DNA of 64,000 nt from positions 62,001-126,000 of the forward strand of contig NZ_POTW01000003.1 in the NCBI RefSeq assembly GCF_003236295.1, in the 5' to 3' direction. Positions 28,632-49,878 of the stretch are shown here, piece by piece (the stretch's first letter is position 1; each line of letters begins with the position of its first letter). The position numbers and the translations under genes were made by a program. Under the pieces are notes generated by a model, which saw only the letters and a list, made by a program, of their open reading frames with translations, did not search any database and had not been told where the DNA came from. The stretch comes from Jiangella anatolica (GTDB lineage Bacteria > Actinomycetota > Actinomycetes > Jiangellales > Jiangellaceae).

Positions 28632-29729
28632 TCAGCGTGGTTCGCGCCGAGCGGCTGGTGGCAGGGAGGGCCCCTGGCCGCCGGGGGCGTCCTGGTACCA
28701 GTAGGCCGTCGTGCAGACGTCGTCGGCGCGTTCGAACAGCAGGCCCCCGCGGTCGCCGATCTGCTGGAGGGTGACCCGCAGGCCGGTGCCGAACCGGATC
28801 GGGTCGGGCAGGTGCCAGCGGTACATGCCGTGGCTGGGCGGCATCGTCGTGTCGTACGGCGAGATGGCGGTCTCGTCCTCGACCAGGCGCTGGTGGTAGC
28901 CCAGATAGGCGGTGCTGAAGGTCTGGCTCCGCGGCACCGGGACGGCGCCGAGGTGGTCCTGGAACGCCCATGCCCCGCCGACGTAGTCCTCCAGGCCGGT
29001 GCCGCAGATCGTCGGCAGGCTCTCGTCGTCGTCGATGAAGAACTTCAGCTCGCCCTCGCCCCACCAGAACCGCTCGAGCGCGGTGACGCCGATGTAGGTG
29101 CCGACGTAGGCGCCGCGCCCGCTGACGTCGTCGAGCACGACGTGGTCGGTGCCGCGCGGCACGTCCGGCCCGGTCCGCCGCCACTGCGCGTGCAGGTAGC
29201 CGAGGTCGTCCTCCAGCGCGTCGCCGAGGGAGTAGGAGACCTGGTAGAACACCCCCTCGATCGGGCCGGCGTGCTCGTTGCGCAGCTCGATCCGCGCGGC
29301 CCGCCGGAACGGCATCGGCAGATAGCAGTTGAAGCCGCCGTTGGGCGCGACCACCATCGGCGCGGAGTACACCGGCGACGCGGTGGCGAACCCGCTGAGG
29401 AAGAAGTCGCCGAACGGGACCTCGACGGCGGGCGCGTCGGCGTCGTCCCAGGTGATCCGCAGGACGAGGTCGCGCAGCACGTACGGGCCGGCGGCGGTGG
29501 CCCGCGGCAGCGTGAACCAGAGATGCCGGATGACGCCCGGCCCGTCGATCGCCGCGATCGTCGCCGTCTCGCCGGCGCCGATCGTGATGCACGGCCGGCC
29601 CTTGCGTCCGGGACCCAGCCGCGAGGCGGCGGCGCCACCGGCGCCGGGCGCACCGGTGGGGTTCTCCGCGCTGATGGATCGGCTCCGGGTGCGGTCCAGG
29701 CGGGCGTAGGCGGGCAGATCGAGAGACAC
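28632..29729 (-). CDS. GH172-family (DUF2961) glycosidase
   Basis: About 365 residues without signal peptide. DUF2961 signatures: IDGPGVIRHLWFTLP, PFGDFF, NCYLPMPF, FWWGEGELKFFIDDD and CGTGLEDYVGGAW; the Glu of GEGE and of LEDY are in the positions of the catalytic pair proposed for GH172. Characterised GH172 members are a difructose-dianhydride-I synthase/hydrolase (alpha-fructofuranosidase) and alpha-D-arabinofuranosidases. I chose GTG 29729, 7 nt behind GGAG; GTG 29771, overlapping the permease stop, would add 14 residues. It is the last gene of the minus-strand transporter operon 29768-32905. Confidence 0.85.
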   Translation of the reverse strand: MSLDLPAYARLDRTRSRSISAENPTGAPGAGGAAASRLGPGRKGRPCITIGAGETATIAAIDGPGVIRHLWFTLPRATAAGPYVLRDLVLRITWDDADAPAVEVPFGDFFLSGFATASPVYSAPMVVAPNGGFNCYLPMPFRRAARIELRNEHAGPIEGVFYQVSYSLGDALEDDLGYLHAQWRRTGPDVPRGTDHVVLDDVSGRGAYVGTYIGVTALERFWWGEGELKFFIDDDESLPTICGTGLEDYVGGAWAFQDHLGAVPVPRSQTFSTAYLGYHQRLVEDETAISPYDTTMPPSHGMYRWHLPDPIRFGTGLRVTLQQIGDRGGLLFERADDVCTTAYWYQDAPGGQGPSLPPAARREPR

Positions 29730-29767
29730 AGGCGAGCTCCAGAAGGTCGGTACGGCGGCCGGAGCGC

Positions 29768-30628
29768 TCACTTGACGGCCCCGGCGGTGACTCCGCGCGT
29801 GAGGGTGCGCTGGAAGAGGAAGAAGAAGACCAGCGTCGGCAGCAGCGACAGCAGTGACGCCGCGGCCAGCTGGGTGACGTCGAGGGTGTTCTGTCCCTTG
29901 AGGGCGGCCAGCGCGATCGGGATCGTCTGCGCGTCCGGCGTGATGAGCATGATCATCGGGATGAAGAACTCGTTCCACGTCCAGACGAAGAAGAACACCA
30001 GCAGCACCGACATGGTCGGCCGCAGCACCGGCGCGACGATGCGGGTGAGGATCACCCAGCGGTTCGCGCCGTCGACGCGGGCGGCCTCGAGCAGCTCCGC
30101 CGGGAACGTGCCGAGCACCGAGCTGAGCAGGTAGGTGCCGAAGGCCGCCTGCAGCACGATGAAGATGATCACGACCGACCAGACCGAGTTCTGCAGCCCG
30201 ACGGCCTGCGCACCGGTGAACAGCGGGTAGATCAGCGCCTCCTGCGGCAGGATCGTCGCCATCAGCAGGACGAACACCACCCAGGTCCGCCCGCGCACGC
30301 GGCCGATCCCGATGGCGTAGGCGCTGAGCATCGACACCGCCACGCCCACGACGGCCACGACGCCGGCGATCAGCACGGAGTTCGTCAGCAGCCGCGGGTA
30401 ATCGACGCTGCCGAGGTAGCGGTCGAACGCCGAGAACGTCCACGGCTCGGGCAACGCGAGCGGGCCGCGCTGCGAGTAGTCCGCGCCGGTCTTGAACGCG
30501 TTGCTGACCAGCAGGTAGAACGGCACCAGCATCACCACGGCGACCAGCGCCGCGACGATCAGCAGCGCCCACCGCCGGGTGGTCAGCAGCGCCACGACGC
30601 GCCGGTCGCGACGTCGCCGGGTGCTCAT
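29768..30628 (-). CDS. CUT1 sugar ABC transporter permease (MalG type)
   Basis: 286 residues with six membrane helices; the coupling loop is ELLEAARVDGANRWVILTRIVAPVLRP (EAA motif) and the N-terminus MSTRRRRDRR is a short basic cytoplasmic tail. ATG overlaps the partner permease stop (ATGA). Forms the membrane channel with the product of 30625-31566. Confidence 0.9.
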   Translation of the reverse strand: MSTRRRRDRRVVALLTTRRWALLIVAALVAVVMLVPFYLLVSNAFKTGADYSQRGPLALPEPWTFSAFDRYLGSVDYPRLLTNSVLIAGVVAVVGVAVSMLSAYAIGIGRVRGRTWVVFVLLMATILPQEALIYPLFTGAQAVGLQNSVWSVVIIFIVLQAAFGTYLLSSVLGTFPAELLEAARVDGANRWVILTRIVAPVLRPTMSVLLVFFFVWTWNEFFIPMIMLITPDAQTIPIALAALKGQNTLDVTQLAAASLLSLLPTLVFFFLFQRTLTRGVTAGAVK

Positions 30629-31566
30629 CGCTCCTCCATCGAACGCGCCTGCCAGAAGATCAGCCCCGCCGCGACCAGCCCGATGACGATCGCCAGCGTG
30701 GTCGCCGAGGCCGCGCCGTAGCCGACCCGGGACAGCTCGAAGAAGTTCCGGTACGAGAAGTACGACGGGACGTACGTCGAGCTCTCGGGGCCGCCTTTGG
30801 TGAGGATCAGGATCGGCGCGAACAGCTTCATCGCCCCGATCGTGGCGGTGAGCACGACGACGTAGATGTCGGTGCGGATGTGCGGGACGGTGATCGCCCG
30901 GAACCGGCGCCACCAGCCGGCGCCGTCGAGCTCGGCCGCCTCGTGGAGCTCCGGTTCGACCCGCTGCAGCGCGGACATGAAGATCACGACCGGGTAGCCG
31001 ATCTGCAGCCAGATCAGCATGATCATGACCGAGCGCAGCGCGATGTCCGGGTCGCCGAGCCAGTCCGGGCCGCCGGCGATCCCGAGCGCCCGCAGCGTCG
31101 AGTTCAGCGCGCCGTCGCGGGTCTCCAGGATCCACGCCCACACGACGCCGGCCACGGCGATGGGCAGGATCTGCGGGAGGTAGTAGCTGGCCCGCAGCAC
31201 CGAGGCGACCCGCGGCCCGAACAACCGGCCGAGGTAGTCGAACAGCAGCGCGGCCAGGAGCAGCCCGATCAGCGTCGGCACGACGGCGATCGCGACGATC
31301 AGGTAGAGCGTGTTGCCGAACGAGCTCCAGAAGACGTCGTCGCGCAGCAGCTCGCGGTAGTTGTCCAGGCCGACCCAGGTCCTGGGCGCCGCGCCGCCCT
31401 TCCAGTCGAAGAAGCTGTAGTACAGGTTCATCGCGAAGGGCACGAGGACGATCGCGCCGAAGCCGATCCCGATGGGTACCAGATACGCCCAGTAGGTCAC
31501 CGGGCGGCGCCGGCGACCCGCCTCGGTGACAGGCGCGGTGGCGGGCGCGGTGGAGATCAAGGTCAT
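30625..31566 (-). CDS. CUT1 sugar ABC transporter permease (MalF type)
   Basis: 313 residues: VTYWAYLVPIGIGFGAIVLV as the first helix, five more, and the coupling loop PELHEAAELDGAGWWRRFRAITVPHIR. It lies 55 nt after the binding-protein stop. The local operon has no ATPase gene, so it must rely on a shared ATPase such as MsiK encoded elsewhere. Confidence 0.9.
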   Translation of the reverse strand: MTLISTAPATAPVTEAGRRRRPVTYWAYLVPIGIGFGAIVLVPFAMNLYYSFFDWKGGAAPRTWVGLDNYRELLRDDVFWSSFGNTLYLIVAIAVVPTLIGLLLAALLFDYLGRLFGPRVASVLRASYYLPQILPIAVAGVVWAWILETRDGALNSTLRALGIAGGPDWLGDPDIALRSVMIMLIWLQIGYPVVIFMSALQRVEPELHEAAELDGAGWWRRFRAITVPHIRTDIYVVVLTATIGAMKLFAPILILTKGGPESSTYVPSYFSYRNFFELSRVGYGAASATTLAIVIGLVAAGLIFWQARSMEER

Positions 31567-31621
31567 GGCTGCTCCGGTTCGGCGCCCGGACCCGCGGCGG
31601 CGCGGGTCCGGGCGGAGATGG

Positions 31622-32905
31622 TCAGGACTGGCTGCCGGAGTCGTAGAACTCCTGCATGTCCGCCAGGAACGAGGCGGCGTCCGTCGAGCCGTTGGCCAGC
31701 GCCTGCAGCCCGCTCATCTGGAAGTCGAGCAGGCCGGGCACCGGATAGTCGGGGTAGAACGAGAGCGCGTCGCGCTCGCGGATGGCGTCGAACTGCTCGT
31801 TCAGCTCCCGCATGCGCGGGTCCTCGATCGACGCGGTGTCGCCGGCCACGGGGATGCCGCCGAGCGCGGCGATCTCGTTCTGCACCTCGGGCGAGAGCGT
31901 GGTCTCGATCCAGTCGTAGGCCAGGTCCTTGTTCTTCGCGTTGGCCGGCACCGACCACAGGTGGCCCGACGCCCCGGCGTTGAGCGCGGACTCGGGGAAG
32001 GCGAAGGTGCCCCACTCGAAGCTCGCCTCCTCGCTGACCCGGGCGAACGACCAGGTGCCGTTGGCCATGAACGGGAACTCGCCGGCGATGAACGCCCGCT
32101 CCATCTCGTCGGCCTTGATCCCCGCGAGCTGCGTGCCGAGGTAGCCGGCCTCGATCCAGTCCTGCAGGTGCTGGGTGCCCTCGAGGAACGCGCCGGAGGT
32201 CACGTCGGGCTCGCCGTCGACGAAGATGAAGTCGTCGATGGCCGGCCGGTCCGCGACGGCCGAGATCAGCTGCCACCAGGTCTGCAGGACGGCGTGCTCG
32301 CCGGCGTTGCTGGACACCGGCGTGACGCCGTCGGCGAGGAAGGCGTCGAACATCGCCTCCAGCTCCGCCATCGTCTCCGGCGGGCCGTCGAAGCCGTGCT
32401 CGGCGAGCAGGTCGGCGTTGTAGTAGAAGGTGAAGAACGACGCGACGTTCGGCACGCCGTACCAGTCGCCCGAGCCGGCGTGGCCGGTCTCGTCGTAGAC
32501 GGCCAGCGACCGGACCGAGCCGGTGATGCGCTCGTCCCACCCGCGCTCCTCGACGACGTCGGTCAGCGGGTCGATCAGGCCCTGGGCGGCCAGCTGGCCG
32601 CCGTCGGCGTTGCCGGTGTTCACCAGCATGACGTCCGGCACGTCGTCGCCGGTGAGCAGGATCTTCGCGTTCGACCGGATCGAGTCGAAGCTGGTGCTGG
32701 CGAACTCGACCTCGACGTCGGGATGCTCCTCCCGGAAGATCTCCAGCGCGCGCTGCCACCCCCGGTACTGCGCCGTCGAGGTGGTCTCGTACTGCAGGAT
32801 CGTGAACGTCTCGTCGTCGGATCCAGAACCCGAACAGGCGGTGAGGCCCGCGGCGAGAGCGAGCACAGCCGCTCCTGCCGCCATCCGTTGCCTCGTCTTC
32901 GTCAC
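31622..32905 (-). CDS. Sugar ABC transporter substrate-binding lipoprotein (family 1)
   Basis: 427 residues with signal peptide and lipobox LTAC (MTKTRQRMAAGAAVLALAAGLTAC). The body is SBP_bac_1: FTILQYETTSTAQYRGWQRALE, GDDVPDVMLVNTG, AGEFPFMANGTWSF. It binds the oligosaccharide for the following two permeases; because the operon ends in a GH172 enzyme, a fructose- or arabinose-containing saccharide is inferred. It is divergent from the LacI gene at 33071, with candidate operators between them. Confidence 0.9.
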   Translation of the reverse strand: MTKTRQRMAAGAAVLALAAGLTACSGSGSDDETFTILQYETTSTAQYRGWQRALEIFREEHPDVEVEFASTSFDSIRSNAKILLTGDDVPDVMLVNTGNADGGQLAAQGLIDPLTDVVEERGWDERITGSVRSLAVYDETGHAGSGDWYGVPNVASFFTFYYNADLLAEHGFDGPPETMAELEAMFDAFLADGVTPVSSNAGEHAVLQTWWQLISAVADRPAIDDFIFVDGEPDVTSGAFLEGTQHLQDWIEAGYLGTQLAGIKADEMERAFIAGEFPFMANGTWSFARVSEEASFEWGTFAFPESALNAGASGHLWSVPANAKNKDLAYDWIETTLSPEVQNEIAALGGIPVAGDTASIEDPRMRELNEQFDAIRERDALSFYPDYPVPGLLDFQMSGLQALANGSTDAASFLADMQEFYDSGSQS

Positions 32906-32972
32906 AGCGTCCTCCCACGTCGTCTCTGACCGTTCGAACGTTGGCGCCCGCCGTGACCCGGCCGCCAGCGGT

Positions 32973-32984: not shown

Positions 32985-33037
32985 TTTCGGATTGTGGCGC
33001 GTCCAGCAGGATGTTCGTAGCACTACGGTCACGCCTT

Positions 33038-33049
33038 GGTAACGTGACC
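33038..33049. promoter_or_regulatory. Candidate LacI operator (GGTAACGTGACC), regulator side
   Basis: Same GGTAACG..ACC pattern, 21 nt before the LacI GTG, 14 nt after the start of a -10-like TACGGT (33024-33029). The matching -35 is weak. Confidence 0.65.
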
Positions 33050-33070
33050 TCAGAATTGGAGGAGGGTCTT

Positions 33071-34075
33071 GTGGCGACGATCAACGACGTGGCCCGGCTG
33101 GCCGGCGTCAGCCCCATGACGGCATCGCGCGTCGTCAACGGGACCGGCAACGTCCGCCCGGAGTCGCGCGAGAAGGTGCTGCGGGCGGTCGAGGCGCTCG
33201 GCTACACCCGCAACTATGCCGCGTCCGCGCTGCGCCGTCGCGGCACGCCCACCTGGACCGTCGGCCTCGTCCTCGAGGACGTCGCCAACCCCTATCAGGC
33301 GCAGCTGCACCGCCAGATCGAGGACGCCGTGCGTGAGCGCGGCTCGCTCGTGCTCGCGGCCAGCACCGACGAGGACCCGCGGCGCATGAGCGACCTCATC
33401 CTGGAGCTCCGGTCACGCCAGGTCGACGGCCTCGTTGTCGCGCCGCCGCCGGGCGACCAGTCGTACCTGGCGGCGGGGCAGCGTCAGGGCATCCCGCTCG
33501 TCCTCGTCGACCGGCCGGCCGTCGGCATCGCCGCGCCGGCCGTGCTGTCCGACGGCAGGCGCGGCACCCGCGACGCCGTCGGCCATCTCGTCGCGCACGG
33601 ACACCGCCGCATCGCCTACATCACCGACCTGCGCTCGGCGACGATGCGCGAGCGGCACGCCGGCTTCCTCGACGGGCTGCGCGAGCACGGGCTGGCTCCC
33701 GACGACGCGCTGGTGCGCACCGACGTCGAGGCGCCCGAGCTCGCCGCCGCGACCGTCCGCGAGCTGCTTGCGCTCCCGGAACCGCCCAGCGCGCTGATCA
33801 CCGGCCGCGACGGCACCACCGTCGGCGCGGTCCGGGGGCTGCACGCCGCCGGCGCCCAGCACCGGGTGGCGATGGTCGGCTTCGACGACGTCGAGCTCGC
33901 CGACCTCCTCGAGCCCGGCCTGACGGTCGTCGCCCAGGATCCCGCGGCGGTCGGCCGCAACGCCGCGCAACTGCTGCTGCGGCAGCTCGCCGATCCGGCC
34001 ACGCCGGTCGAGGGTGTCCGGGTCCCGACGACGCTCATCCCGCGCGGCTCCGGCGAGCTCCCGGCGCCGGGCTGA
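33071..34075 (+). CDS. LacI-family transcriptional regulator (second circuit)
   Basis: 334 residues from GTG 33071 behind GGAGGAGGG. Helix-turn-helix ATINDVARLAGVSPMTASRV, hinge with YAASALRRRG, then the sugar-binding domain (VGLVLEDVANPYQ..., MVGFDDVELADLL). It is divergent from the CUT1/GH172 operon 28632-32905 and probably represses it and itself through the GGTAACG..ACC sites. Confidence 0.9.
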   Translation: MATINDVARLAGVSPMTASRVVNGTGNVRPESREKVLRAVEALGYTRNYAASALRRRGTPTWTVGLVLEDVANPYQAQLHRQIEDAVRERGSLVLAASTDEDPRRMSDLILELRSRQVDGLVVAPPPGDQSYLAAGQRQGIPLVLVDRPAVGIAAPAVLSDGRRGTRDAVGHLVAHGHRRIAYITDLRSATMRERHAGFLDGLREHGLAPDDALVRTDVEAPELAAATVRELLALPEPPSALITGRDGTTVGAVRGLHAAGAQHRVAMVGFDDVELADLLEPGLTVVAQDPAAVGRNAAQLLLRQLADPATPVEGVRVPTTLIPRGSGELPAPG

Positions 34076-34667: not shown

Positions 34668-36125
34668 ATGACGGACTCGATCTTCTTCAGGCCGGCCCGG
34701 GGATGGGTGGGCGATGTCATCCCGCTGCATCACGAGGGTGAGTACTGGCTGTTCTACCTGCACGATCGTCGCGATCCGGCGCAGCCGGGGACGGCGTGGA
34801 ACCTGGTGCGCACGCGGGACTTCGTGGAGTACGAGGACGCCGGCGTCGCGCTGCCGCACGGTGACGCGTCGAGCCAGGACCTGAACGCGTACACGGGCAG
34901 CGTCGTGGCCGACGGCGGCCGTCATCACCTCTTCTACACCGGCTACAACCCCGCCTTCACCGACGAGGCGACCGGGACGCCGCTCCAGGTGGTCATGCAC
35001 GCGGTGAGCGACGACGGGATGCGCAGCTGGACGAAGCTGCCGGAGGACACCTTCGGCGCACCCGGCGCGGGCTACGAGCCGGGGGACTGGCGCGACCCGT
35101 TCGTCTTCCGCACGTCGCCCGGCGAGCCGTGGCGGATGCTGCTGGCGGCCCGCCGCGACAGCGGGCCCGAGCGGCGGCGCGGGCTGATCGCCGAGTGCCG
35201 CTCGGACGACCTGCGGTCGTGGACGACGGTGGAGCCGTTCTGGGACCCGTCGCTCTACGTCGCGCACGAGTGCCCGGACGTGTTCCGGATCGGCGACTGG
35301 TGGTACCTCGTGTACTCGGAGTTCTCCGACCGCTTCTGCACGCGGTACCGGATGGCGCGGACGCCGGACGGTCCGTGGCAGGCGCCCGCACACGACGCGC
35401 TCGACGGCCGCGCCTTCTACGCGGCCAAGACCGCGGGTGACGCGGGCCGGCGCTTCGCGTTCGGCTGGATCCCCAGCCGGGAGGACGAGCGCGACGACGG
35501 CGCCTGGCAGTGGGCCGGCGACCTCGCCGTCCACGAGCTCGTCCAGCAGCGGGACGGCACGCTCGCCGTCGCGCTGCCCGGCGAGGTCAGGGCCGCGTTC
35601 GCCCAGGAGACGCCGACGGTGTTCCGGCCCGTGCTCGGCACGTGGGCCGGCGACGGGCCGAGCTGGCGAGCCGAGGCGCCGGACGCGTACGCGGTGCTCG
35701 TCACCGACGACGACCTCCCGGACCAGTGCCTGGTCAGCGTCGTCGTCGACATCGCACCCGGCACGACGGAGTGCGGCGTCCTGCTGCGCACCTCGGCGGA
35801 CGGCGACGAGGGTTACGTCGTGCGCCTGGAGCCGCGACGGCAGCGGATGGTGTTCGACCGCTGGCCCCGCCGCCGCACCGGGCCCATGCAGTGGCAGATC
35901 TCCGGCGACGTCCCGCACGCCGTCGAGCTGGAGCGTCCGTGCGACCTGCCGCCCGGCCGCCACGTGCTCGACATCGTGGTGGACGGCACGGCCTGCATCG
36001 CTTACCTGGACGGGCGCGTCGCGATGAGCGCCCGCAGCTACGACCGGCGCGGGGGCGGGCTCGGTCTATTCGTCGGCGAGGGCTCTGCGTCCTTCACCGG
36101 CATCACGGTCACTACCCGCACATGA
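34668..36125 (+). CDS. GH32-family fructosidase, divergent subgroup
   Basis: 485 residues, no signal peptide. The five-bladed propeller starts at once: GWVGDVIPLHHEGEYWLFY replaces the usual WxNDPNG but keeps the nucleophile Asp (Asp16). DWRDPFVF gives the transition-state Asp143, and HECPDVF the acid/base Glu201. A C-terminal beta-sandwich follows (to HVLDIVVDGTACIAYLDGR). Substrate is probably a beta-fructoside, but the altered first motif means the specificity is uncertain. First gene of an operon with a CUT1 transporter, LacI, fructokinase and another GH32. Confidence 0.82.
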   Translation: MTDSIFFRPARGWVGDVIPLHHEGEYWLFYLHDRRDPAQPGTAWNLVRTRDFVEYEDAGVALPHGDASSQDLNAYTGSVVADGGRHHLFYTGYNPAFTDEATGTPLQVVMHAVSDDGMRSWTKLPEDTFGAPGAGYEPGDWRDPFVFRTSPGEPWRMLLAARRDSGPERRRGLIAECRSDDLRSWTTVEPFWDPSLYVAHECPDVFRIGDWWYLVYSEFSDRFCTRYRMARTPDGPWQAPAHDALDGRAFYAAKTAGDAGRRFAFGWIPSREDERDDGAWQWAGDLAVHELVQQRDGTLAVALPGEVRAAFAQETPTVFRPVLGTWAGDGPSWRAEAPDAYAVLVTDDDLPDQCLVSVVVDIAPGTTECGVLLRTSADGDEGYVVRLEPRRQRMVFDRWPRRRTGPMQWQISGDVPHAVELERPCDLPPGRHVLDIVVDGTACIAYLDGRVAMSARSYDRRGGGLGLFVGEGSASFTGITVTTRT

Positions 36126-40351: not shown

Positions 40352-41277
40352 CCGGCCCCGTGCTCGTGGTCGGTGAGGCGCTCATCGACCTGGTGCGCCG
40401 GCGGGACGCAGGCGCGGCGGAGCACCCCGGCGGCAGCCCCGCGAACGTGGCGCTGACGCTGGGCCGGCTGGGCTGGGACGCGCGGCTGGCGACGTGGATC
40501 GGCGCGGACGCGCGGGGTGCGGCGATCCGGTCCTGGCTGGCGGAGTCGGGTGTCCGGCTCGTGCCGGGCAGCGACGGCGCGGCGCGCACGCCGGTGGCGA
40601 CCGCGACGCTCGACGCGGCCGGCGCGGCGGCCTACGAGTTCGACCTGGAGTGGCGGCTGCCCGCGGACGTGCCGGTGGACGGCGTCGTCGCCGTGCACAC
40701 CGGATCGATCGCCGCGGTGCTGGAGCCGGGCGGACCGGCGGTGGTCGAGCTGGTGCGCCGGGCCCGCCCGCACGCCACCGTCACGTACGACCCGAACCTG
40801 CGCCCGGCGCTGATGGGGGAGCCGGCGGCCGTGCGCGACCGGGTCGAGGCCTGCGTAGCGCTCGCCGACGTGGTCAAGGTCAGCGACGAGGACCTGGGCT
40901 GGCTGTTCCCCGGCGCCGACCCGATGGCCGTGGCGCGCCGGTGGCTCGCGGCCGGGCCGTCGGTGGTGGTGGTCACGTTCGGTGGCGACGGCGCCGCCGG
41001 CGTCGCCGCGAGCGGGCCGGTCCGGGTGACGGCGCCGCCGGTCGCGGTCGTCGACACCGTCGGCGCCGGCGACTCGTTCATGGGGGCGCTGATCCACGGG
41101 CTCGGGCGGGCCGGGCTCCTGGGCGCCGGCCGCCGCGACCGGCTGCGCGGCATCGACGGCGCGACGCTGACGTCCCTGCTGCAGCTCGGCGTCGACGTGG
41201 CCGCCGTGACCGTCGCCCGGCCCGGCGCCGACCCGCCGCGCCTGGCCGAGCTGCCGCCGTCGCCGTCCGTACCGTAG
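40348..41277 (+). CDS. PfkB-family carbohydrate kinase, probable fructokinase
   Basis: 309 residues from GTG 40348, overlapping the LacI stop. VVGEALIDLV and GGSPANVALTLGRLG are the N-terminal PfkB signature; VDTVGAGDSFMGALIHGL carries the anion-hole GAGD with catalytic Asp242. GGSPANVA is typical of bacterial fructokinases. It would phosphorylate fructose released by the GH32 enzymes in the same operon to fructose-6-phosphate. Linkage supports the assignment; other ribokinase-family sugars cannot be excluded. Confidence 0.87.
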   Translation: MTGPVLVVGEALIDLVRRRDAGAAEHPGGSPANVALTLGRLGWDARLATWIGADARGAAIRSWLAESGVRLVPGSDGAARTPVATATLDAAGAAAYEFDLEWRLPADVPVDGVVAVHTGSIAAVLEPGGPAVVELVRRARPHATVTYDPNLRPALMGEPAAVRDRVEACVALADVVKVSDEDLGWLFPGADPMAVARRWLAAGPSVVVVTFGGDGAAGVAASGPVRVTAPPVAVVDTVGAGDSFMGALIHGLGRAGLLGAGRRDRLRGIDGATLTSLLQLGVDVAAVTVARPGADPPRLAELPPSPSVP

Positions 41278-42776: not shown

Positions 42777-42805
42777 TTGACGGCGGGTTCGCCCGGCCTT
42801 AAAGT
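42777..42805 (+). promoter_or_regulatory. Promoter of the 42858-49878 operon
   Basis: TTGACG (42777-42782), 17-nt spacer, TAAAGT (42800-42805): one of the best promoter matches in the window. Confidence 0.78.
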
Positions 42806-42808
42806 CTG

Positions 42809-42834
42809 CGTAATCGATTACGCAATCGATTACG
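42809..42834. promoter_or_regulatory. Paired LacI-type operators (CGTAATCGATTACG and CGCAATCGATTACG)
   Basis: A perfect 14-bp palindrome at 42809-42822 and an adjoining near-copy at 42821-42834. The first begins 9 nt after the start of the -10, over the expected start point, and the pair ends 23 nt before the LacI ATG at 42858, so autoregulation of that operon is likely. Confidence 0.85.
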
Positions 42835-42857
42835 TTCGGAGCCCGAGGGAGTGCCTC

Positions 42858-43886
42858 ATGAGCGGACCCACGTATCGGGACGTCGCCAGGGAGCTGGGCG
42901 TCTCGACGGCGACGGTGTCCCGCGCGCTCGCCGGCGAGATCGGCGTGAGTGAGGAGCTGGCCGAGCGGGTGCGGCGGACGGCCGAGGCGCTGGGCTACCG
43001 CTCCAACCGGGCGGCCCGGGCGCTGCGGAAGAAGCGCGCCGAGGCGATCGGCCTGGTCATCTCCGACGTCGAGAACCCGTTCTTCGCCTCGCTGGCCCGG
43101 ACGGTCGAAGGCGTCGCCGCCGAGCGGCGGCACGCGGTGCTGCTGTGCAACACCGACGAGGACCTCGACCAGGAGCGGCTCTACCTCGACCTGCTGATCG
43201 AGGAGAACGTCGCGGGCGTCATCGTGGCGCCCTCGGCCGAGGAGATCGGGCCGCTCGCGCAGCTGCGCCAGCAGGGCATCCCCACGATCACGCTGGACCG
43301 CCGCGTCGAGGACGATCCCTTCGACGCCGTCCTCGTCGACCACCGTGCCGGCGCGCGGGAGCTCGTCGCGCACCTGCTCGAGCACGGGCACCGCAGCATC
43401 GCCGCCGTCATGGGCACGACGGCGGCCACACCCAGCCGGGAACGCCTGGCCGGCTGCCGCGAGGCCATCGACGCCGTCGGCGGCGCCCAGCTCAGCGTCG
43501 TCGAGGGCGAGATGCGCGACGCCGTCGGCGTTCAGGGCACCTTCGAGCTGGGCGAGCGCCTGGCGATGGAGATGCTGACCGGCGACGACCGCCCGAGTGC
43601 GGTGTTCTGTGCCAACGGCCTGCTCTCGCTCGGTGTCCTGCGCGCGGTGCGCCGGCTCGGGCTGCGCGTGCCGGATGACATCGCGGTCGTCGGCTTCGAC
43701 GACCAGCCGTTCTTCGACCTGCTGGACCCGCCGCTCAGCGTCGCGGCCCAGCCACTGGACCAGCTGGGACGGACCGCCGTCGAACTCCTCTTCGAGCGGA
43801 TCGCCCACCCCGACCGGGACGTCAGCTCGGTCGTCCTGCCGCCCGAGCTGCGACTGCGCCGCTCGTGCGGCTGCTCGGGCACGTGA
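42858..43886 (+). CDS. LacI-family transcriptional regulator (fourth circuit)
   Basis: 342 residues. ATG 42858 follows GAGGGAG, and upstream in-frame codons would run through the operators. Helix-turn-helix TYRDVARELGVSTATVSRAL, hinge AARALRKKRAE, sensing domain (IGLVISDVENPFFASLARTV..., VVGFDDQPFFDLLDPPLSVAAQP). First gene of an operon with a CUT1 transporter, GH172 and GH32; it probably represses this operon through the CGTAATCGATTACG pair. Confidence 0.9.
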   Translation: MSGPTYRDVARELGVSTATVSRALAGEIGVSEELAERVRRTAEALGYRSNRAARALRKKRAEAIGLVISDVENPFFASLARTVEGVAAERRHAVLLCNTDEDLDQERLYLDLLIEENVAGVIVAPSAEEIGPLAQLRQQGIPTITLDRRVEDDPFDAVLVDHRAGARELVAHLLEHGHRSIAAVMGTTAATPSRERLAGCREAIDAVGGAQLSVVEGEMRDAVGVQGTFELGERLAMEMLTGDDRPSAVFCANGLLSLGVLRAVRRLGLRVPDDIAVVGFDDQPFFDLLDPPLSVAAQPLDQLGRTAVELLFERIAHPDRDVSSVVLPPELRLRRSCGCSGT

Positions 43887-43903
43887 CCGAAAGGACCAAG
43901 CTC

Positions 43904-45313
43904 ATGAACGCTCTGTGGACGCCCACCCGGCGCCGGTTCCTGTCCGGCTCGCTGGCCCTCGGAGCCGGCGCCCTGGCCGGGGGCACCCTGCTCTCCGCCT
44001 GCGGCAGCGGCGACGACGGCACCAGCGGCGACAACGCCACCATCGACTTCTGGCAGTGGTACTCGCCGCAGGAGGGCGGCAGCTACTCCGTCGCGGCACA
44101 GAGCACCTGGTTCGCCGACCTGGCCGACGAGTGGAACGCCCGCGGCGGCGCGCAGGTGCGACTCACCTACATCCCGATTGCGGAGTACATCGAGGGCACG
44201 CAGCTGCAGTCCGCGTTCTCCGCGGGCGAGGGGCCGGACATGTTCGTCATCAGTCCCGGCGACTTCCTGCGCTACTACAACGGCGACGTGCTCTACGACC
44301 TGACCGACGCGCTCGGCGACGGGGCCGGCGACTTCTACGCGTCGGCCATGAGCAGCCGGACGGTCGACGGCCGCGTCTACGGCATCCCGATGGAGAGCGA
44401 GCCGCTGACGATGTTCTACAGCGTCGCCGCGTTCGAGGAGGCCGGGTTGTCCGAGGGCGACATCCCCGCCACCTGGGACCAGCTGCTGACCGTCGCCGAG
44501 CGCCTCACCACCGGCAACCGGTTCGGCGTGCTGTTCGAGACCAGCCCGAACGTCTACCAGAACTTCACCTGGTACCCGTTCCTCTGGCAGGGCGGCGGCG
44601 ACGTCGTCGACGACAGCGGGCTGGCGTCGGCGTTCGACTCGCCGGCCGCGGCGGCGGCGCTGCAGTTCTGGCAGGACGCCATCGCCGCGGGCGTCGCGCC
44701 GCGGACCATGCAGGGCGGCGGTGGCGGCGACCTCGTCGCCAACCTCGCCAGCGGCTACGCCGCGATGGCGCAGATGGTGACGGCGGGCGGCTCGTTCCTC
44801 GAGGCCGGCGCGCCGGACTTCGAGTACGGCATGTTCCCGCTGCCGGTCCCCGAGGCCGTCGCCGACCCCGTCACGGACATGGGCGGCTGGGCGTTCTGCG
44901 TCAACAAGAACAGCGCGAACGCCGAGGCGGCGGCGGAGTTCTGCGCCTGGGCGCTGTCCGGCGACGAGAGCGTCGACCGGATGGTGTCCTGGGCGTTCGA
45001 CGCCAAGAAGAGCCTGCCGGTGCGCAAGTCGGTGATGCAGAAGGCCGCCGACGACGGGCTGTTCGAGCAGGACTCCCTGATGGCCTACGCCGCGTTCGAG
45101 GTCGTCGGGCTCGACCCGGCCGCCCTCGACAGCGACGACACCCCGTACGGCCGCGGCGAGCCGCGGTTCACGCCCGAGGTGGTCAAGGCGGTCACCGACG
45201 CCATCCAGGCCGCGCAGCTCGACGGCGTCGACCCGGCCGAGGCGGCCGGACAGGCCCACGAGCAGATCGACGCCGCGCTGGCCGGGTACGACGGCGCGCC
45301 GCTGGGCTCGTAG
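43904..45313 (+). CDS. Sugar ABC transporter substrate-binding lipoprotein (family 1)
   Basis: 469 residues. The signal TRRRFLSGSLALGAGALAGG then TLLSAC combines a twin-arginine-like motif with a lipobox, so export may be through Tat. SBP_bac_1 body: IDFWQWYSPQEGGSY, GEGPDMFVISPGDFLRYY, DVVDDSGLASAF. It starts 17 nt after the LacI stop and feeds the permeases at 45316 and 46253. Confidence 0.9.
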   Translation: MNALWTPTRRRFLSGSLALGAGALAGGTLLSACGSGDDGTSGDNATIDFWQWYSPQEGGSYSVAAQSTWFADLADEWNARGGAQVRLTYIPIAEYIEGTQLQSAFSAGEGPDMFVISPGDFLRYYNGDVLYDLTDALGDGAGDFYASAMSSRTVDGRVYGIPMESEPLTMFYSVAAFEEAGLSEGDIPATWDQLLTVAERLTTGNRFGVLFETSPNVYQNFTWYPFLWQGGGDVVDDSGLASAFDSPAAAAALQFWQDAIAAGVAPRTMQGGGGGDLVANLASGYAAMAQMVTAGGSFLEAGAPDFEYGMFPLPVPEAVADPVTDMGGWAFCVNKNSANAEAAAEFCAWALSGDESVDRMVSWAFDAKKSLPVRKSVMQKAADDGLFEQDSLMAYAAFEVVGLDPAALDSDDTPYGRGEPRFTPEVVKAVTDAIQAAQLDGVDPAEAAGQAHEQIDAALAGYDGAPLGS

Positions 45314-45315
45314 TC

Positions 45316-46272
45316 ATGGCCATGACCCTGCAGCGTCCGCCCGCGGCCGGCGCTGCCACGCCGCAGCCGCGGCGCCGGTCCCGGCGTCGCCGGGAGGCGC
45401 TGGCCGGCTACGCCTTCGTGGCGCCGTCGGCCATCGGCGTGGGCGTCTTCGTGCTGGTGCCGATGCTGCTGGCGTTCGGGCTGAGCTTCACCACCGCCGA
45501 CGGCTTCGGCCGCATGGAGTTCGCCGGCCTGGAGAACTACCGGCGGATGTTCGCCGACCCGCTGTTCACCAACAGCCTGAAGGTCACGCTCCTGTACGTG
45601 GGCGCCTTCGTGCCGGGCCTCTACGTCCTGGCACTGATCATGGCGCTGCTCGTGCACGGCGACCTGCCCGGGCGGGCGTTCTTCCGGGCGGCGTTCTTCG
45701 CGCCGTACACGGTGAGCCTGGTGGTCGTCGGGCTGATCTGGCGCTACATGCTGGCCGACCGGGTCGGCGTCGTGGACACCGTGCTGCGCCGGTTCGGCGT
45801 GGAGCAGCCGCCGTCGTTCCTCGGCGATCCGGACCTCGCGCTGTGGACGGTCGTGTTCATCAGCATCTGGTTCTTCGTCGGCTTCTACATGATCATCCTG
45901 CTCGGCGGCCTGCAGGACATCCCGTCGGAGCTGTTCGAGGCCGCGAAGCTCGACGGCGCCGGCTACGCGCGGACGGTGGTCAGCGTGGTGCTGCCGCTGC
46001 TGCGGCCGACGACGTTCTTCGCGCTGGTCCTGGCCACCATCGCCGGGCTGGCGGGGCTGCAGGCGTTCGACCTGATCTTCGTGATGACCGAAGGCGGCCC
46101 GGCCAACTCGACCAGCCTCGGCATCTACTACATCTACCAGCAGGCCTTCCGCGGCAACCAGTTCGGCTACGCCTCGGCGATGGCGGTCTGGTACGCGCTG
46201 GCGCTCATCGCGCTGACCGGCATCGCCTTCTGGCTGACGAAGGGGGGCCGCTTTGACTCCGCTGACCGCTGA
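45316..46272 (+). CDS. CUT1 sugar ABC transporter permease (MalF type)
   Basis: 318 residues. A basic N-terminal tail (QPRRRSRRRREALAG) precedes YAFVAPSAIGVGVFVLVPML; coupling loop SELFEAAKLDGAGYARTVVSVVLPLLRP and the FVMTEGGPANST motif are typical. ATG 45316 lies 2 nt after the binding-protein stop; MTLQ two codons later is an alternative start. Confidence 0.9.
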   Translation: MAMTLQRPPAAGAATPQPRRRSRRRREALAGYAFVAPSAIGVGVFVLVPMLLAFGLSFTTADGFGRMEFAGLENYRRMFADPLFTNSLKVTLLYVGAFVPGLYVLALIMALLVHGDLPGRAFFRAAFFAPYTVSLVVVGLIWRYMLADRVGVVDTVLRRFGVEQPPSFLGDPDLALWTVVFISIWFFVGFYMIILLGGLQDIPSELFEAAKLDGAGYARTVVSVVLPLLRPTTFFALVLATIAGLAGLQAFDLIFVMTEGGPANSTSLGIYYIYQQAFRGNQFGYASAMAVWYALALIALTGIAFWLTKGGRFDSADR

Positions 46273-47125
46273 CGCGGCCGTCGGCTCCGGCGAACGGCGC
46301 CGGCGACGGCGCGGGCGGCGGGTCTCCACCGCCCTGGCGGTCGTCCTGGCCTCCGTGCTGGCGTTCGTGCAGCTGTTCCCGCTGATCTGGATGGTGTCCG
46401 GCGCGCTGAAACCGTCGGGGGAGACGGCCGGGGCGAGCCTCGTCCCGGCGAACCCGACGCTGGACAACCTCGTCACCGTCTTCACCCGCATCCCGTTCGC
46501 GCGCTACCTGCTCAACAGCTTCCTCACCTCCGTCGCCGTGACGGTGCTGCTGGTCGGCCTCGGGGCGCTGGCCGGCTACGCGCTGGCCCGGTTGCGCTTC
46601 CCCGGCCGGGGCGTGGTGTTCGGCATGTTCTTCGCGACGCTGCTGGTGGCCCTACCGGTGATCCTGGTCCCGCTGTTCTACGTGGTGAGCCGGATGGGCC
46701 TGACGAACAGCTACGCCGGGCTGATCCTGCCGGTGGCGTTCACCGCGTTCCCGGTCTTCCTGATGCGGCAGTTCTACCTCTCGTTCCCCACCGAGCTGGA
46801 GGAGGCGGCCGACCTCGACGGGGCCGGCTACCTGCGCCGGTTCGCCCAGGTCGTGCTGCCGCTGAGCGCGCCGATGCTGGCGTCGCTGAGCGTCATCACG
46901 TTCCTGGCCACGTGGAACAGCTTCCTGTGGCCGCTCACCGTCGCCCGCGACAGCGACCTGTGGGTCGTGCAGGTCGGCATCGCCTCGTTCCAGAGCCAGT
47001 ACGGCGGCGAGTGGAACCTGGTGATGGCCGCGTCGCTGCTCGCCGCCGTCCCCACGCTGCTCGTCTTCCTGGTGCTCCAGCGCCAGATCATCGAATCGAT
47101 CAAGGCCTCCGGACTCAAAGGCTGA
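46253..47125 (+). CDS. CUT1 sugar ABC transporter permease (MalG type)
   Basis: 290 residues starting at TTG 46253 behind AAGGGGGG, overlapping the partner gene by 20 nt in another frame. Basic tail (GERRRRRRGRR), first helix TALAVVLASVLAFVQLFPLI, coupling loop TELEEAADLDGAGYLRRFAQVVLPLSAP. No ATPase gene is near. Confidence 0.88.
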   Translation: MTPLTADAAVGSGERRRRRRGRRVSTALAVVLASVLAFVQLFPLIWMVSGALKPSGETAGASLVPANPTLDNLVTVFTRIPFARYLLNSFLTSVAVTVLLVGLGALAGYALARLRFPGRGVVFGMFFATLLVALPVILVPLFYVVSRMGLTNSYAGLILPVAFTAFPVFLMRQFYLSFPTELEEAADLDGAGYLRRFAQVVLPLSAPMLASLSVITFLATWNSFLWPLTVARDSDLWVVQVGIASFQSQYGGEWNLVMAASLLAAVPTLLVFLVLQRQIIESIKASGLKG

Positions 47126-47137
47126 AAGGACTGTCTC

Positions 47138-48514
47138 GTGCCCGATTCCCTCCCCTTCGCCCTCGGTGACGACCTGCTCGGCCGCGTCGCCAAGCGTCGT
47201 CGCGCCCGCTCCGCCCGCGTCTCCAGCTGGGACCAGACCGGCGGCAACGAGGACGCCTTCGTCGTCATGCCGGGCGAGACCGCGGTGCTCGCCGACATCG
47301 AGGGACCGGGCTGCATCACGCACCTGTGGTTCACCCAGACCTGCCGGCGCATCATCGGGCCCGGGCTCATCGACCCCACGCAGGCCGGCGTCGCGATGCT
47401 GGAGATCCACAACGCGCTCGGGGTGAACTGGGAGATCACCGACCCGGACTACTACCGCAAGGTGATCATCCGGATGTACTGGGACGACCAGGAGCACCCG
47501 AGCGTCGTCGCGCCGCTGGGCGACTTCTTCTGCGTCGGCAACTCCATCGCGGGCAACTTCGCGTCGCTGCCGTTCACCGTCTCGGTCAAGGACGACGAGC
47601 GCCTGAAGTTCGGCGGACCGGCCGCGCTGAACTGCTACCTGCCGATGCCGTTCAACAGCCGGGCCCGCATCGAGGTCGAGAACCAGAACGATGTCGCCTA
47701 CGTGCAGTACTACTACGTCGACTACGAGCTCTACGTCGACCCGCTGCCCGACGACCTGCTGTACTTCCACGCGCACTGGCGGCGCGAGAACCCGTGCGAC
47801 GGCTGGGGCCCGGACCTGCAGGTGAACAGCCTGGAGACGCAGGTGCCCAACCTCGACGGCGCGGGCAACTACGTCATCCTCGAGACCGAGGGCGCCGGCA
47901 ACTACATCGGCTGCAACCACTCCGTCGCGCACTTCCCGGGCACCTGGTGGGGCGAGGGCGACGACATGATCTTCATCGACGACGACGTCTGGCCGCCGAG
48001 CATGCACGGCACCGGCGGCGAGGACTACTTCAACCAGGCCTGGGGCATGCAGCGCAACGCGTACCCGTTCTGCGGGACCATCGTGCACGAGGGCGACGTG
48101 CCCGGCTACCAGGTCAGCTACCGGTTCCACCTGGCCGACCCGGTCCGGTTCGACAAGCGCATCCGCGTGACCATGGAGCACGGGCACGCCAACCACCTCG
48201 CCGACGACTGGGCGTCGACGGCGTACTGGTACCAGACGCTGCCCGGCCCCCGGCTGGACATCCCGCCGGTGGAGCAGCGGCTGCCCCGCCGGCCGCGGAC
48301 GCCGCCGTCGGACGGCATCGTGGCGCCGGGCCGCACCGGGCTGGACGAGGTCCGCCAGGCGATGCTGCGTCAGCGCGACGAGCGGATGGGCGAGTTCGAG
48401 CGCAAGCGCGCCGAGTGGCTCGAGCGACGGGCCCGCGACACCCGGGCCCGTCAGGTCGCCAACGCCGAGCAGGCCCGCCGGATCCGCGCCGCCTACCTCG
48501 ACGGCCTGCGATGA
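47138..48514 (+). CDS. GH172-family (DUF2961) glycosidase with long C-terminal tail
   Basis: 458 residues, GTG 47138 behind GAAAGGA, no signal peptide. DUF2961 signatures: IEGPGCITHLWFTQT, PLGDFF, NCYLPMPFNSRARIE, TWWGEGDDMIFIDDD and HGTGGEDYFNQAWG, with Glu in GEG and GED as the probable catalytic pair. After about residue 370 a Pro-rich linker leads to a 70-residue Arg/Glu-rich segment (RDERMGEFERKRAEWLERRA) that looks helical or coiled-coil and is missing from the GH172 at 28632. The stop overlaps the GH32 start, so the two enzymes are made together. Substrates known for GH172 are difructose dianhydrides and D-arabinofuranosides; linked GH32 favours the former. Confidence 0.87.
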   Translation: MPDSLPFALGDDLLGRVAKRRRARSARVSSWDQTGGNEDAFVVMPGETAVLADIEGPGCITHLWFTQTCRRIIGPGLIDPTQAGVAMLEIHNALGVNWEITDPDYYRKVIIRMYWDDQEHPSVVAPLGDFFCVGNSIAGNFASLPFTVSVKDDERLKFGGPAALNCYLPMPFNSRARIEVENQNDVAYVQYYYVDYELYVDPLPDDLLYFHAHWRRENPCDGWGPDLQVNSLETQVPNLDGAGNYVILETEGAGNYIGCNHSVAHFPGTWWGEGDDMIFIDDDVWPPSMHGTGGEDYFNQAWGMQRNAYPFCGTIVHEGDVPGYQVSYRFHLADPVRFDKRIRVTMEHGHANHLADDWASTAYWYQTLPGPRLDIPPVEQRLPRRPRTPPSDGIVAPGRTGLDEVRQAMLRQRDERMGEFERKRAEWLERRARDTRARQVANAEQARRIRAAYLDGLR

Positions 48515-49878
48515 CGCAGCGAGCACCGGCGCACGCGGAGACCGCCGTCGCCCCCGATCACTGGCGGCCTCGGTACCACGTCACCGGCGTCCGGAACTGG
48601 ATCAACGACCCCAACGGGCCGGTACACCTCGACGGCCGCTACCACCTGTTCTTCCAGGCCAACCCGCAGGCGCCGGCGTGGGGACCGCCGCACTGGGGGC
48701 ACGTCAGCTCCGCCGACCTGGTGCACTGGACCCGCCACCCCACGGCGCTGGCGCCGTCGCCCGGCGGGCCCGACGCCGACGGCTGCTGGTCCGGCTGCCT
48801 GCGGGTCGTCGACGGCCGGCCGGCCATCTACTACACCGGCGTCGTGGGCGAGGACGACGACCGGGTGGAGTCGGTCTGCCGGGCCTGGGGCTCACCGGAC
48901 CTGCTGACCTGGTCGAAGGAGCCGGAGCCGTTGCTGGCCGGACCGCCGCCCGAGCTCGGCAGCGGCTTCCACCGCGACCCGTTCCTCTGGCACGACGGCT
49001 CTGGCTGGCAGCTGCTGCTCGGCAGCGGCACCACCGCGGGGGAGCGACACGGCCAGGTGCTGCGTTACGACTCGCCGGACGGTTCCCGCTGGCGGTACCG
49101 GGGTGTCTTCTTCGCCGCGCCGCGATGGGCCGGCGGGCTGGATCTCGGTGAGCTGTGGGAGTGCCCGCAGCTCGTGGTCTCCGGATCGTCGGTGGCGCTC
49201 GTGGTCAGCTGCCAGGTGCCCGGCGCGCCGCGCCCGCTGACGCACGCCGCCGGCTTCGTCGGCTCGATCCACGACGGGCGCTTCCAGGGCGAGCCGGCCG
49301 GGATCCTCGATCAGGGCGACGCGTTCTACGCCCCCGCGGTCACGACGGACGCGGCGGGGCGGACGCTGTTGTGGGGCTGGGCGCAGGAGGCGGTGCAGCC
49401 GTCGACCCAGGCGACGATGGGCCAGGTCGGCGCGTTGACGGTGCCGCGGCAGCTGACCGTCGTCGACGGCCGGCTCGACCAGGAGCCGGTGGCCGAGCTC
49501 ACGGCGCTGCGGCGTGCGGAGCTCCGGCCCGGTGACCCGCCGGCCGAGCCCGTGCTCGAGCTGGCCGGGTCGCCGGACGGCGACGGCTGGACGGTGACCG
49601 ACGACGTGGCGCGGCTGCGGGTCGGGGCCGGCCCGGACGGGCTCGCGGTCGAGGTGGCCGACCCGATCGGCGGCGAACGATCCTTCACGTTACGGCGGCC
49701 CGCCGGCGCGCCGGTCCGCGTGTTCGTCGACGGATCGCTGGTCGAGGTGTTCAGCGGGGGCGCCGCTCTGACCACGAGAACGTACTGGGCGCGGCCGCGG
49801 GTGCGGCTGAGCGCGTCACGGCGCGGCGACCTTCAGGCCTGGCAGCTCGACGCCGGCGGCCCGCGGTCAGCGGAGTAG
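48511..49878 (+). CDS. GH32 beta-fructosidase
   Basis: 455 residues, ATG overlapping the GH172 stop, no signal peptide. NWINDPNGP gives nucleophile Asp33, GFHRDPFLW Asp156, LWECPQL the acid/base Glu217; the C-terminal sandwich ends with VRVFVDGSLVEVFSGG. It would release fructose from the product made by the preceding GH172 enzyme or from an imported fructan oligomer. Last gene of its operon; the 3' end overlaps the convergent TetR gene by 12 nt. Confidence 0.9.
   Translation: MTQRAPAHAETAVAPDHWRPRYHVTGVRNWINDPNGPVHLDGRYHLFFQANPQAPAWGPPHWGHVSSADLVHWTRHPTALAPSPGGPDADGCWSGCLRVVDGRPAIYYTGVVGEDDDRVESVCRAWGSPDLLTWSKEPEPLLAGPPPELGSGFHRDPFLWHDGSGWQLLLGSGTTAGERHGQVLRYDSPDGSRWRYRGVFFAAPRWAGGLDLGELWECPQLVVSGSSVALVVSCQVPGAPRPLTHAAGFVGSIHDGRFQGEPAGILDQGDAFYAPAVTTDAAGRTLLWGWAQEAVQPSTQATMGQVGALTVPRQLTVVDGRLDQEPVAELTALRRAELRPGDPPAEPVLELAGSPDGDGWTVTDDVARLRVGAGPDGLAVEVADPIGGERSFTLRRPAGAPVRVFVDGSLVEVFSGGAALTTRTYWARPRVRLSASRRGDLQAWQLDAGGPRSAE

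Follow-up and report, generated by a model that had tools for sequence, protein, structure and literature searches.

A stretch of 64,000 nucleotides from Jiangella anatolica (contig NZ_POTW01000003.1 of assembly GCF_003236295.1, positions 62,001 to 126,000), called the window here, carries a sugar-utilization locus with two glycoside hydrolases of family GH172 (GH172a and GH172b), three of family GH32 (GH32a, GH32b and GH32c), a PfkB sugar kinase, three LacI-family regulators and three CUT1 transporter sets. The locus comprises three modules, A (28632-34075), B (34627-42769) and C (42777-49878), which are read here, with somewhat better than even confidence, as intracellular systems that use difructose dianhydrides (DFAs) and sugars derived from fructans; the strain itself seemingly does not make DFAs. 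The substrates are proposed strongly for module C, moderately for module B and weakly for module A. The clear novelty is an Ala-gate branch of GH172, represented by GH172a, which is tied, in most of the few genomes carrying it, to a conserved endo-levanase-like GH32 operon.

The host genome amounts to 7.0 Mb in 256 contigs, and the GC content is about 68-75% per 4 kb across the window. Pfam searches recovered every family listed above, confirming the GH172, GH32, PfkB and CUT1 genes of a first-pass annotation made from the sequence alone, and its claim of a direct GH172/GH32 overlap holds as well, with GH172b ending at 48514, the ATG of GH32c at 48511 and 4 bp shared. That annotation did not distinguish the three modules (Table 1). 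SBP_A, permA1, permA2 and GH172a lie on the minus strand, with LacI_A divergent. Modules B and C occupy the plus strand (34668-49878) with small gaps or overlaps between genes, in the order GH32a, SBP_B, permB1, permB2, LacI_B, PfkB, GH32b, LacI_C, SBP_C, permC1, permC2, GH172b and GH32c. Chance is excluded, as the domain scores lie far over the cut-offs and the gene order recurs in other genera.

DUF2961 is full-length in both GH172 enzymes (Pfam cut-off 27 bits), and the catalytic Glu pair is kept in both. They share 41.8% identity over 318 aligned residues and are, as judged from their sequences, different kinds of GH172. The 646-residue open reading frame (ORF) at 28632-30572 was rejected as one protein: the DUF2961 match is limited to residues 366-627, and the part upstream of these overlaps a permease in another frame. 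A start at GTG 29771 would make GH172a overlap the permease stop; the comparisons and residue numbering use the 365-residue form from the alternative GTG 29729.

Each CUT1 set has two permeases and a single binding protein. A domain scan of the 18 locus proteins, to which the search was confined, found no ABC ATPase, so that a shared ATPase from elsewhere is needed. By hydrophobicity and lipobox pattern, the only criteria applied, none of the five glycosidases shows an obvious signal peptide (maximum Kyte-Doolittle mean over 13 residues at most 0.78 within the first 45), and all three binding proteins have a lipobox pattern; the apparent role of the locus is therefore the uptake of small sugars that are cleaved intracellularly. 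The best NCBIfam model for the PfkB kinase, which is probably a fructokinase, is fructokinase PRK09434 (116.3 bits, below the model cut-off of 450).

Table 1. Genes and candidate regulatory sites of the locus, in window coordinates
Feature	Position	Strand	Basis and remarks
GH172a (DUF2961)	28632..29771	-	Pfam 272.9 bits; 379 residues from GTG 29771 or 365 from GTG 29729
CUT1 permease A2 (permA2)	29768..30628	-	BPD_transp_1
CUT1 permease A1 (permA1)	30625..31566	-	BPD_transp_1
SBP_A, sugar-binding lipoprotein	31622..32905	-	SBP_bac_8/SBP_bac_1, lipobox pattern
Weak candidate LacI operator, SBP_A/LacI_A intergenic	32929..32942		Single near-palindrome; 4/100 window shuffles also match
LacI-family regulator A	33011..34075	+	LacI and Peripla_BP_3; true start may be later
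Three tandem candidate LacI operators TTAANCGNTTAA	34627..34654	+	Two exact, one with 1 mismatch; 5' of GH32a
GH32a, endo-levanase-like	34668..36125	+	Glyco_hydro_32N/C; triad D16/D143/E201
SBP_B, sugar-binding lipoprotein	36145..37491	+	SBP_bac_1, lipobox pattern
CUT1 permease B1 (permB1)	37506..38393	+	BPD_transp_1
CUT1 permease B2 (permB2)	38390..39283	+	BPD_transp_1
LacI-family regulator B	39323..40351	+	LacI and Peripla_BP_3
PfkB sugar kinase	40348..41277	+	PfkB 139.4 bits
GH32b, beta-fructofuranosidase type	41288..42769	+	Glyco_hydro_32N 253.6 bits; PDB 7VCO 201.6 bits
LacI-family regulator C	42777..43886	+	LacI and Peripla_BP_3; first ORF start used, true start may be later
SBP_C, sugar-binding lipoprotein	43865..45313	+	SBP_bac_1, lipobox; first ORF start used, true start may be later
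CUT1 permease C1 (permC1)	45322..46272	+	BPD_transp_1
CUT1 permease C2 (permC2)	46253..47125	+	BPD_transp_1
GH172b, DFA I synthase/hydrolase relative	47138..48514	+	Pfam 285.3 bits
GH32c, beta-fructofuranosidase type	48511..49878	+	Glyco_hydro_32N 204 bits (longer ORF); PDB 1UYP 154.7 bits

Module C as a probable DFA I system

Almost the full length of GH172b (residues 17-453 of 458) matches alphaFFase1 (7V1V), the characterised GH172 DFA I synthase/hydrolase of Bifidobacterium dentium, with 564.9 bits. The alphaFFase1 type was selected at more than 47% identity, more than 79% coverage and a conserved catalytic pocket (PMC8605356); GH172b shows 53.2% identity over 432 aligned residues with the pocket conserved. 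Its acid/base E273, nucleophile E295 and +1-subsite residues E89 and K151 match alphaFFase1, as do Y191, W270, D296, W302 and G303, and the sole changed pocket residue among those checked is the calcium-site N272, replaced by Asp (Asp275), which also occurs in many homologues. Position 299 of alphaFFase1 is a Gly that admits fructose (PMC10509167), and its equivalent in GH172b is the gate residue Gly303.

The neighbourhoods of GH172 genes were compared in extracts of about 20 kb, several of them truncated by contig ends and that of the window 42 kb long, "near" meaning anywhere in the extract. Only extracts longer than 6 kb were used, and GH172 matches below about 250 residues, among them broken copies in L120, L186 and L082, were not classed. 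With identical sequences counted once, 149 unique sequences remained: 81 alphaFFase1-like (Glu85 and Gly299), 40 Asn-gate ExoMA1-like, 7 with a Pro gate, 5 of the GH172a clade and 16 others (gate Gly in 11, Glu in 2 and Asp, Ala and Cys in 1 each). Neighbouring GH183, GH116, GH91, GH32, levan fructotransferase and PfkB genes were sought with few single-sequence queries at E 1e-8, so that all counts are lower bounds. Around the 81 alphaFFase1-like sequences, GH32 was found in 71 extracts, GH91 in 15 and GH183 in none.

GH91 was rejected as a constant neighbour of GH172b, being present in only 15 of the 79 homologue loci, which are the best 79 of 592 pattern matches. L082 carries a GH91 related to inulin fructotransferase (851.7 bits to 8HSN). 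More distant GH91 proteins (264-280 bits to the L082 enzyme) lie near alphaFFase1-like genes in L050, L051, L056, L062, L063 and L109, and are possibly DFA III hydrolases rather than fructotransferases. Among the same 79 matches, the nearest named GH172b relative, 97% identical, belongs to Jiangella aurantiaca (L045), which has module C without A and B and carries PfkB after GH32c.

GH172b compares with a small set of described systems. The Bifidobacterium dentium alphaFFase1 locus (BBDE_2039-2043; PMC8605356) likewise holds LacI, GH32, GH172 and an ABC importer, with no obvious signal peptides. No GH91 is reported there, and none was found in the present host; unlike that locus, GH172 and GH32 overlap here, PfkB is nearby and modules A and B adjoin. 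Growth of B. dentium on DFA I is quoted as unpublished data (PMC8605356). The three-stage DFA I pathway proposed for Streptomyces davawensis (GH91, GH172 and GH32; PMC8605356) shares the intracellular GH172 and GH32, but its first, extracellular stage is missing here, as GH91 was not detected in the host genome. The Blautia DFA III cluster (PMC11538131) similarly combines an importer, a ring-opening enzyme and GH32, with a GH91 DFA-IIIase as the ring opener there and GH172 here.

Since identity, pocket and neighbourhood of GH172b match alphaFFase1 systems, module C adds a member to an already published kind of system, and the GH32 and GH91 counts around the homologues back the S. davawensis pathway of Kashima et al. 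on a broader set of genomes. GH172b almost certainly opens DFA I, a known ring-shaped fructose sugar. Transporter C would import DFA I (alpha-D-Fruf-1,2':2,1'-beta-D-Fruf), GH172b would open its alpha bond to give inulobiose, GH32c (or GH32b) would split inulobiose to fructose, and PfkB would phosphorylate the fructose.

Several side observations concern the homologues of GH172b. GH116 genes lie near GH172b-type genes in L052, L073, L079 and L111/L189 (only the L189 protein was in the Pfam run), and because this family includes a beta-D-arabinofuranosidase (PMC10509167), a beta-D-fructofuranosidase role could be asked for them. Enterobacterial alphaFFase1-like genes in L078, L083 and L100 have Arg for Lys147 and no GH32 found nearby, with a recurrent adjoining protein of 450 residues that looks membrane-transporter-like by eye. 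In L087, L107 and L117 (Blautia and other Lachnospirales-type), two different GH172s accompany a CUT1 set, GH32 not being found in these extracts. A 931-residue protein with hairpin-glycosidase-type domains stands beside the GH172s of L117 and has relatives in L084, L087, L107 and L116. Clustering of unmatched ORFs around the GH172b homologues gave mostly antisense noise.

Module B and its proposed levan-derived substrate

GH32a is a separate, endo-levanase-like kind of GH32, in which WVGDVIP replaces the WLNDPNG or WINDPNG motif of ordinary members such as GH32b and GH32c. Its Pfam score is 107.9 bits, it shows the five-bladed propeller of the family, and the columns of its Asp/Asp/Glu triad (D16, D143 and E201) are invariant or nearly so. 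The closest solved sequence relatives are entries of the endo-levanase BT1760 (6R3R and kin, 155.4 bits). The model fold is also nearest to 6R3R (Z 41.5, 2.6 A, 452 residues; next enzyme Z 34.9) in searches where only Foldseek's top chains were re-aligned, so that absences carry no meaning. Identity over the aligned structure is 27-28%, which does not fix specificity. BT1760 of Bacteroides thetaiotaomicron (PMC6560043) carries a signal peptide and is active on levan extracellularly; GH32a, in which the triad columns are kept, differs from it in having no obvious signal peptide and in sitting with a CUT1 importer.

Orthologues of GH32a are rare, with E at most 1e-40 in 4 of 392 other sampled genomes of the class and in 0 of 11 other Jiangella genomes. 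All nine loci whose GH32a match reaches 523 bits (window, L061, L186, L188, L189, L200, L201, L202 and L203) keep the order GH32a, SBP_B, permB1, second permease and LacI_B. Weaker best matches (64-322 bits) in L052, L055, L084 and L095 were left out, and the second permease was recognised elsewhere by its likeness to permC2, permB2 not being a query. Within about 12.5 kb, four of the nine loci (window, L061, L188 and L189) combine the GH32a operon with a GH172b-type gene, which suggests that the two systems tend to travel together; the extracts of the other five hold no GH172b-type gene. In L186 (region 2.7-6.9 kb), a transposase-like ORF (by eye) interrupts the operon between permB2 and permB1.

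The TTAANCGNTTAA motif has three matches in the window, compared with 0.01 expected, and the three tandem sites are predicted operators of LacI_B. The motif also occurs 5' of GH32a in the Acrocarpospora locus L189 (4957-4968) and in Bacilli loci L072, L074 and L076; apart from these and the window copy L195, the exact motif is in no further locus of 262.

A levan-derived substrate of transporter B and GH32a is backed by the fold of GH32a and by levan fructotransferase-type neighbours in two of the nine loci. Flanking the operon in L203 are a levan fructotransferase (782.2 bits to 4FFF) and a protein related to it at 54%, and in L200 an 847-residue relative at 53-55% identity; signal peptides of these relatives were judged by eye from the N-termini. 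Levan fructotransferase makes DFA IV (PMC6245366). Transporter B and GH32a may thus, with moderate support from the sequences, handle a levan product, perhaps DFA IV: LacI_B would act at the three sites 5' of GH32a, transporter B would import a sugar of DFA IV or levanbiose type, and GH32a would cleave its beta-2,6 bonds.

A competing reading, falling only a little short of an even chance, holds that module B serves linear levan oligosaccharides rather than cyclic DFA IV, with GH32a as an intracellular levan-oligosaccharide hydrolase. BT1760 as nearest solved structure speaks for it, as do the whole genomes behind the nine loci: levan fructotransferase is matched at 50% identity or more in only two of them, and the other seven have no such match. 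The levan-acting enzymes that flank the operon in L203 and L200 are, however, a levan fructotransferase and its relatives. This flanking argument for DFA IV is in turn weakened by the endolevanase LevB1, which falls in the same sequence neighbourhood (9H8I, 339.7 bits). Against the main reading of module B, the operator motif is not specific to GH32a, as the three Bacilli loci lack that gene.

The Ala-gate GH172 branch of module A

The nearest PDB relative of GH172a is ExoMA1 of Microbacterium arabinogalactanolyticum (8IC8; 48.5% identity over 330 residues), a GH172 exo-alpha-D-arabinofuranosidase (PMC10509167). The GH172a model (pLDDT, the predicted local distance difference test score, 87.2) aligns to 8IC8 with a VIA-align Z of 44.2, compared with 37.8 to alphaFFase1. 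The AlphaFold models are monomers, while the GH172 active site lies between protomers (PMC8605356). The fold of ExoMA1 and its catalytic Glu pair are kept in GH172a (E225/E247), but Asn253 is replaced by Ala255 and Tyr161 by Phe161, GH183 is not near and the neighbours are fructan genes. The Asn of ExoMA1 at the alphaFFase1 Gly299 position is said to block fructose (PMC10509167); this Asn gate is absent from GH172a and, likewise replaced by Ala, from four of four relatives, giving an Ala gate in all five unique clade members. GH172a was rejected as a second DFA I enzyme, since the Glu85 segment of the alphaFFase1 +1 subsite is absent and Lys147 is not kept.

Relatives of at least 57% identity were found in Streptomyces shenzhenensis (L187 and L188), a presumed Streptomyces (L186) and Acrocarpospora (L189); the next best, at 56%, is the host's own copy on contig C227. 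At this level, the host is alone among 393 genomes of its class, close relatives being missing from 11 other Jiangella genomes, Acrocarpospora is alone among 249 genomes of its order, and one of 295 presumed-Streptomyces genomes is positive. In L188 and L189, the GH32a operon itself includes GH172a, placed after the second permease and before LacI_B. L186 carries module A in the same order (LacI, SBP_A, permA1, permA2, GH172a) directly beside the GH32a operon, with a second, broken GH172a copy inside that operon at the place before LacI_B; L187 has module A alone. According to the phylogenetic tree, which has long branches and no bootstrap, GH172a falls in an 8-row set (SH-like approximate likelihood ratio test, SH-aLRT, 96) beside the ExoMA1 set (89); the 8 rows are the five Ala rows and, on a branch 2.4 long, three from Firmicutes with a Gly gate.

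Because the gate is Ala instead of the fructose-blocking Asn and most close relatives stand with a GH32a operon, the substrate of GH172a may, on a weak showing, be an alpha-fructofuranoside such as another DFA (DFA III or DFA V). Transporter A would import this further alpha-furanosidic sugar and GH172a would cleave it.

The gate classes differ in their neighbourhoods. The GH172a clade has GH32 in 4/5 extracts and GH183 in 0/5, the GH32a count having risen from 2/5 to 4/5 when L081 and L111 were merged with L188 and L189, longer extracts of the same genes. Asn-gate ExoMA1-like sequences have GH32 in 1/40 and GH183 in 11/40, Pro-gate sequences 0/7 and 4/7, and the 16 sequences outside these classes 4/16 and 0/16. 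An uncorrected Fisher test of gate versus GH32 neighbourhood gives p 0.0002, a value that ignores kinship and is not to be leaned on, and small gate versus GH183 gives p 0.10.

The host itself provides a contrast, with a D-arabinan-type locus (L119, C227:8000-27900, about 9.5-19.9 kb) that holds LacI, an Asn-gate GH172, GH116, a CUT1 set and GH183s. All three GH183 matches over the Pfam cut-off in the host genome (two strong, one marginal) are on C227, and two GH183 (DUF4185) queries found none in window positions 18001-60000. As the Asn-gate GH172 sits with GH183 and GH116 on C227, the host genome appears to separate D-arabinan use from the present locus.

These observations bear on a rival that is possible, if doubtful, in which GH172a would be a standard exo-alpha-D-arabinofuranosidase, D-arabinan oligosaccharides the sugars taken up by module A, and the fructan neighbours a genomic accident. 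ExoMA1 is the closest characterised relative in sequence and fold, itself lacks a signal sequence and lies in a polysaccharide utilization locus with an ABC transporter (PMC10509167), and the L187 copy is away from fructan genes. Contrary to this rival, the fructose-blocking Asn is replaced by Ala throughout the clade, none of its five members has GH183 near, in three of four relatives, spread over at least two other genera, the GH172a gene adjoins the GH32a operon or lies within it, and D-arabinan use already has its own locus in the host.

The reading of module A as a fructoside system has to carry a number of opposing results. By sequence and model, GH172a is nearest to an alpha-D-arabinofuranosidase, and both +1-subsite residues of alphaFFase1, Glu85 and Lys147, are missing. 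Fructan genes are absent from the 19.9-kb extract around the L187 clade member, and L209, whose Ala-gate GH172 falls outside the clade, shows no GH32 or GH183 nearby. Of the 12 sequences on the ExoMA1 side with Ala or Gly at the gate, 6 lack a neighbouring GH32, and GH183 was not found either near 29 of 40 Asn-gate sequences. Corrected for phylogeny on the ExoMA1-side tree, the gate/context association comes down to two independent pairs on supported branches (three on all), with a sign-test median p of 1, and at two supported pairs the test is without power; the link rests on too few independent lineages. The binding proteins give no guide to substrates, as PDB (SBP_A and SBP_B) and NCBIfam (all three) returned only distant sugar-binding proteins and none close to one of known fructan specificity.

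Two observations touch the D-arabinan side. L123, L125 and L127, from the host's genus and family, carry Pro-gate GH172s with GH183 nearby, a second D-arabinan-type GH172 lineage. In L120 (C11:61000-80000), a shortened GH172 relative at 9209-10095 lies in two pieces, apparently a decaying gene.

Probable scavenging of DFAs by the host

Genome searches for DFA-forming enzymes at E 1e-10, with positive controls, found neither levan fructotransferase nor GH91 in the four GH172a-carrying genomes (host G000, G419, G671 and G672), though distant homologues may have escaped detection. The controls matched in both runs. Levan fructotransferase was matched in 6 of 11 genomes, of which 4 had nothing beyond weaker relatives (48% identity or less), and GH91 in 3 of 13. 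Both enzymes were also unmatched in the host at E 0.001, without a positive control. As the glycosidases have no obvious signal peptide and no DFA-forming enzyme was found in the genome, the host probably scavenges DFAs rather than making them.

It is quite unlikely that the whole stretch is a general inulin or fructo-oligosaccharide locus in which GH172b mainly makes DFA I from imported inulobiose: the inulobiose/DFA I equilibrium of alphaFFase1 favours DFA I at 1:9 (PMC8605356) and GH91 was not found in the host, but the GH32 overlapping GH172b would drain inulobiose, and the module's own transporter together with GH91 in the extracts of 15/81 homologues points to imported DFA I.

With J. 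aurantiaca having module C without A and B, and close GH172a and GH32a relatives missing from 11 other Jiangella genomes, modules A and B look like an accessory block beside a DFA I module shared with a relative. Dedicated import and splitting of cyclic fructose sugars, as the first-pass annotation had suggested, is strongly supported for module C (GH172b with its conserved pocket and 53% identity to alphaFFase1, GH32c and transporter C; GH32 with 71/81), plausible for module B and weak for module A, where the nearest characterised enzyme is a D-arabinofuranosidase and only the gate residue and the neighbours favour fructose.

This division tells apart three sugar-specific modules that family names alone lump together. 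The rare, uncharacterised GH172 branch adds a testable D-arabinose/D-fructose switch predicted from a single gate residue, a candidate enzyme and importer can be named for levan-derived sugars including DFA IV, and the locus suggests DFA scavenging by strains without DFA-forming enzymes, namely the host and three further GH172a carriers. A bolder proposal, unlikely as a whole, is that the Ala-gate clade would be a third GH172 functional type, a non-DFA I alpha-fructofuranosidase for DFA III or DFA V whose origin on the D-arabinofuranosidase side was independent of alphaFFase1, and that GH32a would be an intracellular DFA IV hydrolase completing a levan-to-DFA IV pathway. If this were true, the locus would be a scavenging station for several DFAs in one strain. 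In a literature search with most subscription journals outside its reach, levan fructotransferase, DFA IV and a gene cluster were not found together, and among the titles listed none named a DFA IV hydrolase or a fructan-associated GH172 branch on the ExoMA1 side.

Elsewhere in the window, a gene pair made up of a small protein (MAVYHAIVRAKVRRL...) and an opposite-strand ORF occurs twice, at 51407-52461 and 62975-63990, about 11.5 kb apart and with nearly identical starts.

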